Source: Ramlibacter sp. PS4R-6 (lineage in GTDB: Bacteria > Pseudomonadota > Gammaproteobacteria > Burkholderiales > Burkholderiaceae_C). Taken from it: DNA of 64,000 nt. The translations under genes and the position numbers were made by a program. Each line of letters opens with the position of its first letter. The first letter of the stretch is position 1. Below the pieces are notes generated by a model. It was not told the DNA's origin, did no database searches, and worked only from the letters and a program-made list of their open reading frames with translations. Positions 1 through 62,612 of this stretch are shown here, in pieces. Location of the stretch: NCBI RefSeq assembly GCF_037572775.1, contig NZ_JBBHKA010000001.1, forward strand, positions 2,480,001-2,544,000. Reading direction: 5' to 3'.

Positions 1-189
1 GGTGCTCCACCACAGGATCGGCTGGCCGTCGCTGAACCACGGGAAGATGCCGGTGGAGTAGGCGCGGTGCAGGCTGTCGACGTCCAGCGCGCCGCCGGCG
101 GCCAGCAGGCCGGGCGCCGGCTGGCGCGCGTCCCACGCGCGCGCCGGTTCGGGGAAAGCATCGCCGGGATCGAGCCAGGGCAGGTTCAT
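1..189 (-). CDS. aat: Leucyl/phenylalanyl-tRNA--protein transferase, N-terminal part (cut by window edge)
   Basis: The reverse strand encodes 63 residues from an ATG, beginning [20 protein letters not shown] and running off the window. It carries the family block [20 protein letters not shown], the GIFPW/WWS signature of Aat. Aat is a cytosolic enzyme that adds Leu or Phe from aminoacyl-tRNA to the N-terminus of proteins starting with Arg or Lys, marking them for ClpS/ClpAP degradation (known for the family). It is transcribed divergently from the lipoprotein gene on its right, with about 50 bases between starts. The C-terminal three quarters lie outside the window, so completeness cannot be judged. 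Confidence 0.9.
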
Positions 190-242
190 TCTCGGGTGAA
201 TCTCGCATCGCCATCTTGCCGCGACGCTGCTATTGTGCAGTG

Positions 243-1391
243 ATGAACCGCCTGCTCGCGCTTGTCGCCGCTGCGGTACTGGCCGGGTGTGCCAGCACCG
301 CCCCCGCGCCCGCCACCACGCCGTGGCTGGACGCCCAGTTCCAGCACGACGCCGCGCTCGTCACCGTGACGGCGCAGGACCTGTTCCGGCTCGACGCCGA
401 CCTCGAGCAGCGCCTGGCGGAACCGAACGTGCGCGAGGTGTTCAAGGACGTGCGCCTGCGCCGCGTCGTCGACATCATCTTCGGGGCCGACCGCAAGGGC
501 TTCGCCTACCGCGCCGGCCATTCCACGGTGGCCGCCGACACCTGGCGCGACCGCGCCGGCGACTGCCTGTCGCTCACCGTGCTCACGTACGCGGTGGCGA
601 AGAAGATCGGCATGTCGGCCGTGATGCAGGAGGTGCAGACGCCCGCGGTGTTCGGCCGCTCCGGCCAGCTGGACGTCGTGAACCAGCACGTCAACGTGCT
701 GCTGCCGTCGGCGCGCAGCGACTTCCTCGTCTCCGATCCCTGGGGCCACGACGTCGTGCTCGATTTCGAGCCGGACTTCGCCACCGCGCGGCGCGGCACG
801 CAGCTGACCGAGCCGGCCATCCTCGCGCGTTTCTACAACAACGTCGCCGTGGAGCACATGGCGCGCGGCGATGCGCGCATGGCCTATGCGCACTTCAAGG
901 CGGCCATCCTGTCGGACCCCGGGTACGTGTCGCCCTACGGCAACCTCGCCGTGCTGTACCGGCGCAGCGGGCATGAGCAGGAGGCCGAAAGCCTGCTGCG
1001 GTTCGCGGTAGGGCTGGGCGGCACGAGCGACGTGGCGCTGCACGAGCTGCACCGGCTGCTGCGCGACCAGGGGCGTGTGGGCGAGGCCGCGGACGTGCAG
1101 CGCAAGCTCGAGGCGCGCCAGGCCGCCGACCCGTACTACTGGATGAGCCGCGGCTTGCAGCAGATCGCGGCGAACGAGCCGCGCCGGGCCATTTCCTCGC
1201 TGCAGCGCGCCAAGGACCTCGCGCCGACGTTCGCCGAAGTCCACCGCTACCTGGCCACTGCGTACATCCAGTCGGGCGATGTGCAGAAGGCGCGCGAGGA
1301 AGTGGCGCTGATGGAGAACCTGGGCGGCCCGCTCAACAAGGTGGCGGTCCTGCGCCGCAAGCTGGACCAGGCCGAGCGGCCGCCCCAATGA
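243..1391 (+). CDS. Lipoprotein with transglutaminase-like region and TPR repeats
   Basis: The product has 382 residues. The start ATG is chosen because it opens a typical lipoprotein signal: [16 protein letters not shown], with lipobox LAGC and Cys16 as lipidation site; an upstream in-frame ATG would bury this signal. Residues about 85-175 look transglutaminase/peptidase-like: Cys108 in a GDC context, His149 in NQHVNV and an Asp near 174 would make a Cys-His-Asp triad (inference). From about residue 205 to the end there are several TPR-like helical pairs (for example [20 protein letters not shown]). It is probably anchored in the envelope and acts in protein-protein contacts or peptide/peptidoglycan chemistry; the substrate is unknown. 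The last codon abuts a minus-strand terminator. Confidence 0.7.
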
Positions 1392-1421
1392 AAAAAAAAG
1401 GGCCGGCATTGCTGCCGGCCC
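1391..1421 (-). terminator. Rho-independent terminator of leftward transcript
   Basis: On the minus strand a perfect 9-bp stem (GGGCCGGCA / TGCCGGCCC, 4-base loop) is followed by nine T. The T-tract lies on the left, so it ends leftward transcription, not the lipoprotein gene whose stop it touches. It is a second strong terminator, about 190 bases beyond the one directly after tRNA-Asn, which suggests a separate transcript between them. Confidence 0.8.
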
Positions 1422-1537
1422 GATGACACCTTCAAAGAGTTGAAGACACCTATGGCAAGAGAAGGATAGGCGACGGCCCCAAGCTGTGCTGTAGGAGGCT
1501 CAGCCTTAGGTGGCGTAGGCGCAAAGGCCGCGCTGGT
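1391..1537 (-). ncRNA. Candidate small RNA with tandem hairpins (unnamed)
   Basis: The interval between two leftward terminators has no convincing protein but reads as a structured RNA of about 147 nt. In RNA order it shows a small AGGCU/AGCCU hairpin, then a 7-bp stem CGCCUAU/AUAGGUG with a 12-base pyrimidine-rich loop CCUUCUCUUGCC, a 6-bp stem CUUCAA/UUGAAG with loop CUCU, and the strong terminator. The loop resembles an anti-Shine-Dalgarno sequence, as seen in several Hfq-dependent regulators (inference). The 5' end is placed from a promoter-like pair just upstream. I do not recognise a named family. Confidence 0.4.
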
Positions 1538-1543
1538 GTCCGC

Positions 1544-1572
1544 ATCACAGGTGCGTCGGCATCCAGCAGCAA
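1544..1572 (-). promoter_or_regulatory. Candidate promoter of the small RNA
   Basis: Reading leftward, TTGCTG and TGTGAT are separated by exactly 17 bases and resemble sigma-70 -35 and -10 elements (3/6 and 4/6 matches). They lie just after the tRNA-Asn terminator and would start a transcript near 1537. Weak on its own; supported by the hairpins and terminator downstream. Confidence 0.3.
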
Positions 1573-1579
1573 ATGGAAA

Positions 1580-1606
1580 GGGCCCGCACACGGGATGTGC
1601 GGGCCC
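1580..1606 (-). terminator. Terminator after tRNA-Asn
   Basis: A perfect 11-bp stem (GGGCCCGCACA / TGTGCGGGCCC) with a 5-base loop sits just 3' of the tRNA on the minus strand and is followed by TTTCCATTT. It fits an intrinsic terminator for the tRNA transcript. Confidence 0.75.
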
Positions 1607-1616
1607 TTCGATGTTC

Positions 1617-1692
1617 TGGCTCCCCGACCTGGGCTCGAACCAGGGACCTACGGATTAACAGTCCGGCGCTCTACCGACTGAGCTATCGGGGA
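1617..1692 (-). tRNA. tRNA-Asn (GTT)
   Basis: A 76-nt cloverleaf reads TCCCCGATAGCTCAGTCGG at the 5' end. Acceptor TCCCCGA pairs with TCGGGGA, the anticodon loop is CTGTTAA with anticodon GTT, the T arm has GGTTCGAGCC, and discriminator G is followed by an encoded CCA. Anticodon GTT decodes Asn AAC/AAU. Confidence 0.95.
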
Positions 1693-1742
1693 ACAAGCCT
1701 TCGATTATAGCGTCATTTGGCAGGGCTTCCGGACGGATGCGC

Positions 1743-3872
1743 TCAGAGCGACACCGTGACCGAGAGGCGCAGCGTGCGTTGCGCGCCGGGGTAGAGGTAC
1801 ACGTGCCCGAACTGGAACGGCGACTCGCGCCAGTAGCGCCGGTTCGTCACGTTGTCCACGCCCAGCAGCCAGGTCGTGGCGGTGGCGCCGAGCTGCGCCT
1901 GGTAGCGCAAAGCCGCGTCCACGCGTGTCCATGCGGGAAGCATCACCGATTCGTTGGCGAGAACCGGGCGGCTCCCTTCGTGTGACAGCGAGGCCTGCAG
2001 TTCCAACCCGTCCACGCCGGGCAGTCGCCATGCGCCATACGCACGTGCCACGAACTGCGGCACGTTCACGGGCCTCAGGCCGTTCGCGGCCGGGTCCTCG
2101 GTGCTGCCTTCGCGCGTCGCCTTCAACGCCATCGCCGTCGCGCCCGCGCGCCACGCGCCGCTCGCCCAGTGCAGCGCGGCTTCGAGGCCGCGGTGGTGCG
2201 CCACGCCATCGGTGCGCGCCGTGCAGGGTGCCGCGCAGGTGTCGACGTTCGTCACCGGGCGGCGGATGTCGAACGCGCTCGCCTGCCACGTCCAGGCTTC
2301 GTAGGTGCCCTTGAAGCCGAGTTCCCACTGGCGCGACTTGAGCGCCGGGAGCACGGCGCCGGCGTTCGTGTAGACCCCGGCCATGTTGGGCACCACGCGC
2401 GACTCCACGCCTTGTCCCCAGCTCGCGTAGGCCAGCGACCCGCCACCCAGCTTGTAGCTCGCGGCGGCCCACGGCGTCGTGAGCGACTGCGAATAGCCCG
2501 TCGCGCCCACGCCGTCGCTGGGCACGTTGCTGCGGTCCAGCCGCGTGTGGCGCACGCCCAGCCAGGTCGTCGCGCGGTCGTTCCAGTGGATCGCATCGCG
2601 CGCCGAGAACTCCAGCGAGCGCTCGTCGCGGCGCGTGCCGGGATAGAGCGGCCTGGCGTCTTCGCCCACGATCGCGGTGCCGTCGACGTTGCCGAAGCCG
2701 ACCCAGTTGTACGCGTAGTCGGGCAGGCGGTCGCGCGCCTCGTCGCGCAGGACGCCGAAAGACACGTCGTGCCTCGTGCCGGCGATTTCGGCCTTGCCCT
2801 TCAGGTCCAGTGCGAGCGAATCGTGGCGGCGCTTCTCGCCGATGCTGCGGTAGTCGTAGTAGTCGAAGGTGCCGTCGGAGCAGAAGCGTGTGTAGTTGTT
2901 TTCGCTGCTGCAGCCGAAGGGGAAGGCCGTGTAGTCGTCGCTCTTCAGGCGCTGCGTGCCGGCCTGCAGGCTCACGCGCCAGTCGCGCGCGACGGGCTGC
3001 GAGTAGCGCAAGGTGCCGGTCAGCGCGTCGAAGCGCGAAGGCTGCAACCAAGGCTGGTTGTTCAGGTTCAGGCGCGGGTCGGGCACCGAAGTCAGCACGC
3101 CGCCGAGCAGGCTGAAGCCCGCCTGGCTTGCCTGCACCTTGCGGCTCCACTCGACTTCGCCTTCGAGCAGGGCTTCGTTCGCCAGGCGCCAGTCGCCCGC
3201 GAACGACACGAGGCTGCGGCGTCCATCGAGGCCGCGCACGAGCGGGCGCAGCTGTTCCTGCGCGACGTTCAGCCGGTAGCCGAACGCACCGCCGTTGCCG
3301 AAGCGGCCTCCGAGGTCGGCGGCGGCGAGCAGGCTCGCGCGCTGCGTGAACTCCACCCGCACCGCGCGCAGGTCGCTGTCGGTGGGGCGCTTGACGACGT
3401 AGTTCACCAGCCCGCCGGGCGCGCTGGTGCCCGCCTGCATGCCGCTGGTGCCGCGCAGGATCTCGATGCGCTCCTTGTTGTCCAGCGGGATGGTGGTCTC
3501 GGCGCTGGCGGGCAGGCCTTCGCGGCGGTAGTTGTAGCGGTTGTCCAGCACGTAGCCGCGCACGGACAGGAAGTCCCAGTAGCCCGGCGCGTTGTACGCG
3601 TCGGCGACCGACGGGTCGTAGCGCGTGAGGTCCGCGAGGCGCCGCGCGCCGGTCTGCTCGATCATCCGGCTGTCGATGACGCTCGCGGAGACGGGCACGT
3701 CCTTCAGCGGGACGTCACCGAAGCCGGTCACGTCGGCCGCGGGCGGGAACGCCTGGCCGGTCACCGTGACGGGCTTGAGCGTCTGCTGGACTTGGGAATG
3801 GGCTGTGCCCGCGAGGAGCAGCAGCGAGATGGCGCGCGCGACGGCGCGCAATGGATGCGTGTGTGTCTTCAA
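1743..3872 (-). CDS. TonB-dependent outer-membrane receptor under a TPP riboswitch
   Basis: The product has 709 residues. The start codon is TTG, chosen because SD-like GAAGGAAGG lies 6-7 bases upstream and a signal peptide follows (MKTHTHPL.. to about residue 26, AGTAHS). After it come a TonB-box-like segment (LKPVTVTG), a plug domain (ASVIDSRMIEQTGARRLADL, ERIEILRGTSGMQAGTSAPG) and a C-terminal 22-strand barrel. By family it resembles siderophore receptors (FhuE/FpvA type without the N-terminal signalling domain). The TPP riboswitch directly upstream instead argues for uptake of thiamine, thiamine phosphate or a pyrimidine/thiazole precursor; that substrate is inference. The protein ends in Leu, not the usual terminal aromatic residue. 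Energy would come from TonB-ExbB-ExbD; an exbB/exbD pair is in this window. Confidence 0.85.
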   Translation of the reverse strand: MKTHTHPLRAVARAISLLLLAGTAHSQVQQTLKPVTVTGQAFPPAADVTGFGDVPLKDVPVSASVIDSRMIEQTGARRLADLTRYDPSVADAYNAPGYWDFLSVRGYVLDNRYNYRREGLPASAETTIPLDNKERIEILRGTSGMQAGTSAPGGLVNYVVKRPTDSDLRAVRVEFTQRASLLAAADLGGRFGNGGAFGYRLNVAQEQLRPLVRGLDGRRSLVSFAGDWRLANEALLEGEVEWSRKVQASQAGFSLLGGVLTSVPDPRLNLNNQPWLQPSRFDALTGTLRYSQPVARDWRVSLQAGTQRLKSDDYTAFPFGCSSENNYTRFCSDGTFDYYDYRSIGEKRRHDSLALDLKGKAEIAGTRHDVSFGVLRDEARDRLPDYAYNWVGFGNVDGTAIVGEDARPLYPGTRRDERSLEFSARDAIHWNDRATTWLGVRHTRLDRSNVPSDGVGATGYSQSLTTPWAAASYKLGGGSLAYASWGQGVESRVVPNMAGVYTNAGAVLPALKSRQWELGFKGTYEAWTWQASAFDIRRPVTNVDTCAAPCTARTDGVAHHRGLEAALHWASGAWRAGATAMALKATREGSTEDPAANGLRPVNVPQFVARAYGAWRLPGVDGLELQASLSHEGSRPVLANESVMLPAWTRVDAALRYQAQLGATATTWLLGVDNVTNRRYWRESPFQFGHVYLYPGAQRTLRLSVTVSL

Positions 3873-3875
3873 TTG

Positions 3876-3965
3876 GGCCTTCCTTCGCGAGGATTACCTC
3901 GATCAGGTTCTAAGGGACTCTCTCAGTCGCCGCTTGCGCGGCAACACCCCTGGCGAGTGCGACCC
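3876..3965 (-). promoter_or_regulatory. TPP (thi-box) riboswitch
   Basis: The minus-strand leader carries the conserved thi-box blocks in order: GGGGTG, a P3 hairpin GCCGC-GCAA-GCGGC, CTGAGA, CCTTAGAACCTGATC, then GAGG-TAAT-CCTC and GCGAAGGA. This matches the TPP aptamer closely. The 3' edge merges with the SD of the TTG-initiated receptor gene, so thiamine pyrophosphate most likely blocks translation initiation, as in other Gram-negative thi-boxes; no terminator run was seen between aptamer and start. The upstream reductase gene ends only about 25 bases away, so the promoter must lie in or near that gene's 3' end (a TAAAAT hexamer overlaps its stop) or the transcript is read through. Confidence 0.93.
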
Positions 3966-3987
3966 GGGATGGATCGCAGCTGGAATT

Positions 3988-5034
3988 TTAGTCGAAGGTG
4001 GGCGTCTCGACGCCCAGCACCTTGTGCAATTTCGTCGACGTCGTCGTGTACTGCAGGTGCGCGGGCTTGCCCGGGAAGACGATGGGCGCTGCGCCGAATG
4101 CGGCCAATGCGCACTCATGGAAGCCCGACAGGATCAGCTTCTTCTTGCCCGGGTAGGTGTTGATGTCGCCCACCGCGAAGATGCCCGGCACGCTGGTGGA
4201 GAACTTCTCGGTGTCCACCTTCAGCTGGCGGCGCTCAATGTCGATGCCCCAGTTGGCGATGGGGCCCAGCCGAGGCGACAGGCCGAAGAAGACGAGCACG
4301 GCATCGGCGCGGACGTCCTGCGTGCTGTTGTCGGGCGCGGTGATCGTCACCGAGGACAGTTGGCCGTCCTGCTCCGCATAGGCGCTCGCCTGGCCGACGA
4401 CGAAGCGCATCTGCTTCGCCTCGACCAGCTCCTTCATCTTCGCGATCGATGCGGGCGCGGCCTTGAAGCCGTCGCGCCGGTGCACGAGCGTGATGCTCGC
4501 GGCCTTGTTGGGGCCGTCCTGCGCGAAGTTCAGTGCCCAGTCCAGCGCCGAGTCGCCGCCGCCGAGGATCACGAGGTGCTTGCCCGCCAGCAGCGCGGGC
4601 TTCTTCACGCTGTAGAACAGCTGCGTGTCGCGGTATTTCGCGATGCCCTCCAGCGCCAGTGCGCGCGGCTCGAAGGCGCCCATGCCCGCCGCGATGAACA
4701 CTGTCTTGGCGAGGAAGTCGCCGCCCTTGTCCGTGGTGATCGCGAAGCGCCCGTCGTCGCGCTTTTCCAGCGTCATGACGGTGTGGCCCAAGTGGAACGT
4801 GGGGCCGAAGGGCTCGATCTGCTTCAGGAGGTTGTCCGTGAGCTCCTTGCCGGTGCAAACGGGCACGGCCGGGATGTCGTAGATCGGCTTGTCGGGATAG
4901 AGCTCGATGCACTGGCCGCCGGGGTAGGGCAGCGTGTCGATCACGTGGGCCTTGATCTCGAGCAGGCCCAGCTCGAACACCTGGAACAGGCCGACCGGGC
5001 CGGCCCCGATGACGACCGCGTCGGCTTCGACCAT
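3988..5034 (-). CDS. Ferredoxin/flavodoxin--NADP(+) reductase, thioredoxin-reductase-like (type 2)
   Basis: This 348-residue FAD protein passes electrons between NADPH and ferredoxin. An N-terminal FAD Rossmann motif is visible ([17 protein letters not shown], residues about 6-22), then [20 protein letters not shown], the NADPH-binding [14 protein letters not shown], and a C-terminal [24 protein letters not shown] block typical of the YumC-type reductases that lack the CxxC of thioredoxin reductase. The start ATG overlaps the ferredoxin stop (TGATG), so both are coupled. Together they form an electron-transfer pair directly behind the sulfate-assimilation genes on the same strand. The TPP riboswitch of the next gene begins about 25 bases after the stop. 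Confidence 0.9.
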
Positions 5035-62592: not shown

Positions 62593-62612
62593 AGGCCCGC
62601 ACTTGCGGGCCT
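62593..62612. terminator. Bidirectional terminator between sodB and DUF192 gene
   Basis: An 8-bp stem (AGGCCCGC / GCGGGCCT) with loop ACTT lies between two convergent genes. Rightward it is followed by TGTCCTTT, leftward by GTTTTGTG, so it can serve both. Confidence 0.7.

Follow-up and report, generated by a model that had tools for sequence, protein, structure and literature searches.

A possible leftward non-coding RNA between a tRNA-Asn gene and a convergent TPR-repeat gene in Ramlibacter sp. PS4R-6

The window, i.e., the whole 64,000-nucleotide stretch of Ramlibacter sp. PS4R-6 DNA that was analysed, carries a tRNA-Asn (GTT) gene on the minus strand (1617–1692, located by ARAGORN and Rfam). 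Reading leftward, the tRNA gene is followed by a terminator-like hairpin that we assign to it from the sequence (1571–1608, minus); the hairpin itself is GC-rich (about 1606–1580), its T tail is poor, TTTCCATTT, and a consensus terminator scan missed it. Some 150 bases in which no gene was recognised separate this hairpin from a second terminator on the minus strand (1391–1421), whose run of nine T reaches the stop codon of a convergent plus-strand gene for a TPR-repeat protein (246–1391). The TPR gene was found in 16 of the 60 genomes of the genus set, in which the window's own genome is included. The RNA proposed here would be read leftward across the gene-less interval (1391–1540, minus), and is called the element below; the terminator and a homologue speak for it, with its end taken from the T run and its start placed conjecturally. 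In G035 (L030) and G010 (L054), two other genomes of the genus set, the tRNA-Asn terminator is directly followed by another gene, the start of which resembles, by eye, the leucyl/phenylalanyl-transferase gene at the window's left end. In G030 (L005, 1376–1581) there are two tandem tRNA-Asn copies with a terminator-like hairpin between them.

The second terminator consists of a 9-bp stem (hairpin 1421–1400, minus) directly followed by T9 at 1399–1391, and T9 is the only A/T run of at least 8 in the 64 kb. Under strict criteria, i.e., a perfect stem of at least 8 and at least 7 T in 9, two sites in the window qualify, 1421–1400 and 62612–62593, both on the minus strand, and no site did so in 20 shuffles of the window (one strand each). 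The other strict terminator, 62593–62612, sits between two convergent genes. The second leftward nine-T terminator described in the first-pass annotation is present, and it supplies the intrinsic 3′ terminator that is looked for in a bacterial sRNA. The annotation had argued further that a strong terminator lacking a gene needs a transcript. A strong gene-less terminator need not mean an RNA gene, however, as this one could instead act as a backup for the poor-tailed tRNA-Asn terminator.

That no protein explains the stretch is borne out. Of the six frames across 1422–1540, five are interrupted by a stop; in the third frame of the plus strand, the only stop is the first codon. The sole open frame is that of a 114-aa minus-strand ORF (1247–1591), which runs antisense into the TPR gene; the matching frame in the homologous stretch of genome G007 has an early stop (G007 ORF 1077–1415). 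The minus strand of the element is 60% C+T, against 50% in the window.

A single homologue, that of G007, was found among the 59 other genus genomes searched, and in the genomes whose sequence 3′ of tRNA-Asn was read, the element was seen in its own genome and G007 only. The gene order there is that of the window, namely tRNA-Asn, element, TPR gene and transferase gene, and the wider surroundings are shared to a large extent. Window positions 1392–1560 (minus) align with about 1328–1494 of the G007 locus L048 at 121 of 180 identical columns (67%). The alignment score was reached by none of 1000 shuffles, whether or not the terminator was included, and at the sequence level the homology of the two stretches is beyond doubt. 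The similarity does not extend to the part nearer the tRNA, where 135 of 1000 and 423 of 1000 shuffles scored as well. BLAST finds the homologue weakly, with an E of 0.28 in the own genome, and gives no confident detection alone. The G007 stretch, too, ends in a terminator, with T8, which is read from the same strand as that of the window. The two species also share an identical block, GCTGAGCCTCCTACA (1490–1504, minus), the CUCC of which is predicted to be unpaired in both with a probability of at least 0.89, and the sequence CGCCTAC (1515–1521, minus), which lies 10 bases before the block in both.

Homology, however secure, must be set against how alike this pair of genomes is elsewhere. The control comprised 37 other orthologous intergenic stretches from the same genome pair; 18 of them had under 100 aligned columns and were left out, and of the remaining 19 long stretches, 18 exceed the element in identity. 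Some rows include wrongly placed gene ends, a bias to the disadvantage of the element. Conservation above neighbouring intergenic DNA, a further mark sought in an sRNA gene, was thus not found (67%, with 18 of 19 higher). As judged from these alignments, the control lends no support for constraint on the element, and conservation was therefore dropped as evidence of it. One syntenic homologue and a shared motif do not by themselves amount to evidence of function when a genome pair keeps most of its intergenic DNA.

The predicted minimum-energy fold of the element has hairpins at about 1533–1519, 1514–1476, 1472–1447 and 1444–1431. The hairpins and the CCUUCUC loop previously noted do appear in this fold, the loop at 1465–1459 in the hairpin 1447–1472 (minus), but CCUUCUC is not conserved in G007. 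The fold z-score is −4.35 for 1391–1540 and −2.30 for 1391–1580. Removal of the terminator leaves −2.63 on the minus strand, against −2.46 on the plus strand of the same stretch. Among 188 background segments of the window, z-scores average −0.29 (sd 1.14) and the six lowest are at or below −2.65; the terminator-less fold lies in the lower tail of this distribution. The homologous G007 stretch folds no better than its shuffles (z +0.14).

Compensatory change was a second way of asking whether a structure is kept. Outside the terminator, 37 pairs are predicted in the window, 27 of which have letters on both sides in G007. Twelve of these 27 can still form, while alignments slid out of register as controls gave 7 of 29, 9 of 29, 12 of 27 and 13 of 28. 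Two pairs are changed on both sides. One lies in a kept helix, that of hairpin 1447–1472, where CCUAU/AUAGG of the window becomes CCUAA/UUAGG in G007; the other is isolated in a broken helix. With one homologue to compare, the covariation check thus has a single two-sided change that falls within a helix kept in both species. A consensus fold (alifold) without the terminator reaches −13.6 kcal/mol, a value that 1 of 300 column shuffles attained; the alignment, however, was made by hand and with knowledge of the helix. With the terminator, the same hand alignment gives a different and unconvincing consensus.

The promoter is not borne out. The pair with 17-base spacing proposed earlier, TTGCTG-17-TGTGAT, matches 7 of 12 bases of a sigma-70-like consensus, and pairs as good or better were present in 589 of 1000 dinucleotide shuffles of 1500–1590, i.e., at chance level. 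A stricter promoter scan of positions 1–4000 returned none.

The best reading is that the interval encodes a narrowly distributed, non-coding leftward RNA ending at about 1391, possibly an anti-Shine-Dalgarno sRNA; it is not proven, and we give it a probability of roughly 0.4. It is the best single reading because of the terminator, the C+T richness and the predicted unpaired anti-SD-like patch. The small RNA interpretation of the first-pass annotation is upheld in part: a terminator, a C+T-rich strand, a homologue with a same-strand terminator and the lack of an Rfam family stand on one side, and a chance-level promoter, identity not above intergenic DNA, pairs that are not kept and the z of +0.14 in G007 on the other. 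In the proposed mechanism, an RNA of roughly 120–170 nt would start near 1540 and end at the T9 terminator (about 1391). Its role would most likely be that of a base-pairing regulator, with unpaired CU-rich patches covering the Shine-Dalgarno sequences of target mRNAs; the chief pairing patch would be the CUCC in GCCUCCUACA, and the terminator hairpin with its U tail may serve as the usual Hfq-binding end. The terminator, the homologue and the predicted single-stranded state of CUCC in both species are shown, while it is inferred that the RNA is transcribed, that it begins near 1540, that it binds Hfq and that it has targets. A target scan of the own genome for GTAGGAGG followed after 0–14 bases by ATG gave 1 match against 6 for the reversed pattern, hence no excess; the same crude scan in G007 gave 20 against 7 and identifies no target.

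RNAs from tRNA external transcribed spacers that act as sRNA sponges share with the element a position 3′ of a tRNA gene and the strand of that gene. In the window, by contrast, a terminator-like hairpin intervenes, and processing from the tRNA transcript would be hypothetical. If the element acts at all, its mode of action would by analogy resemble that of the anti-SD RNAs NmsR, AbcR1/2 or αr14. NmsRA and NmsRB, sibling sRNAs of Neisseria meningitidis, combine stem-loops and an intrinsic terminator with unpaired, UC-rich anti-SD stretches; they are transcribed and have tested targets (PMC5362039), whereas transcription and targets of the window element are hypothetical. The αr14 or cuckoo RNAs, e.g., NfeR1, carry repeated CU-rich motifs able to pair with Shine-Dalgarno sequences and are defined by three hairpins, each with CCUCCUCCC (PMC10746234). 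The element has one CCUCCUAC and no CCUCCUCCC, and so lacks the motif that defines this family. AbcR1/2 of Sinorhizobium have a short anti-SD motif in a loop and a second one between hairpins; these motifs, CUCCUCCC and UUCCCCUC, are absent from the element, which has no Rfam match either (PMC8844928).

The lead of the leftward-RNA reading over its rivals is small. A backup terminator for tRNA-Asn accounts for the main facts too. T9 would catch read-through from tRNA-Asn that would otherwise run antisense into the TPR gene, and the DNA between the two terminators would be a spacer changing at the background rate. The poor tail of the first terminator, TTTCCATTT, the position of T9 directly at the TPR stop codon, an element identity at or below the intergenic background, and a stretch with no promoter above chance and a fold that is not kept all agree with this. 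It is harder to reconcile with G007, where about 430 bases that include a small ORF separate the two terminators, or with the similarity, which covers all of the stretch preceding the terminator and is absent from the tRNA-proximal part; the C+T bias is left unexplained. We consider the backup stop a possibility, though on the doubtful side.

The small ORF of G007 suggests another origin for the element. It encodes 55 aa (L048, 1106–1273, plus), contains LLAAC, which we take to be a lipobox-like motif, and lies just upstream of the element on the same strand, so the element there could be the 3′ UTR of this ORF. The element of the window, with its terminator, would then be left over from a small lipoprotein-like gene that is present in G007 and absent from the window's genome, in which indeed no match to the ORF was found at E 0.01. 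Such an ORF occurs in 4 of the 60 genus genomes in all (G007 and weak matches in G019, G002 and G010), but in the three genomes with weak matches, the loci that were searched gave no match to the element; nor was any trace of the ORF seen in the window, and neither Pfam nor NCBIfam has a family that matches the ORF. We regard a left-over 3′ UTR as unlikely. A more specific form of the leftward-RNA reading seems to us equally improbable, namely that a young anti-SD sRNA gene arose, in the lineage of the two species, in the spacer between tRNA-Asn and the TPR gene, keeping (G)CCUAC and CCUCCUAC motifs at a fixed spacing while its fold drifted. Finally, a plus-strand element that forms the 3′ UTR of the mRNA from the TPR gene is most improbable, for although the element adjoins the TPR stop codon in both species and the plus strand folds about equally well (z −2.46), the T tract lies 3′ of the hairpin on the minus strand only, in both species, and of the 14 other genus genomes with the TPR gene, the 13 whose 3′ flanks were read have no such element (the fourteenth, G364, was covered by the model search only).

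To return to the leftward RNA, if it is transcribed, it would add to the regulatory RNAs of narrow distribution and illustrate, on a small scale, a way in which genes of this type may originate beside tRNA terminators; even so, the general picture would be unchanged. The narrow distribution rests on several searches. Rfam 15, at gathering and relaxed thresholds, gave no family at threshold for the element; the best sub-threshold matches were sroB for the window (26.7 bits vs. 44, E 0.26) and Bp1_781 for G007 (15.2 vs. 80, E 0.056). BLAST of the window and G007 versions against a plasmid collection found no match, and an exact two-motif scan of 299 family genomes returned the own genome only. 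No convincing third copy was found with a sequence-only model of the two versions in the 60 genus genomes and 399 family genomes, or with the same kind of model in 51 loci beside tRNA-Asn, TPR or lipoprotein-like genes. Strict filters, by which weak matches are lost, were used in the large scans. A literature search found no published description of the element, which is weak evidence.

Several candidate copies were rejected. The next-best genus matches of the model (E 0.003 and 0.013) are without the motifs and fall within long open frames, and four BLAST near-hits, read by eye, are all coding-like or without the motif. A three-motif pattern occurs in four genomes of the genus, namely the own genome, G007 and two in which the matched sequence otherwise differs. 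A scan like the two-motif one of a genome-contig collection gave a single hit, coding-like to the eye, in a Sphingomicrobium MAG, and that of a viral-contig collection gave 15 near-identical stretches that are unlike the element outside the motif.

The neighbourhood holds a further RNA feature. A TPP riboswitch (58.5 bits; 3863–3961, minus) precedes a gene for a TonB-dependent receptor (1743–3872, minus), which NCBIfam places in a siderophore-receptor subfamily (TIGR01783). In G007, two TPP riboswitches surround the same tRNA-Asn locus (L126, 8181–8284, minus, and 4436–4535, plus), one of which faces away from the tRNA; the window differs in having just one in its first 4 kb. The riboswitch in front of the window's receptor gene suggests that this receptor takes up thiamine instead of a siderophore.
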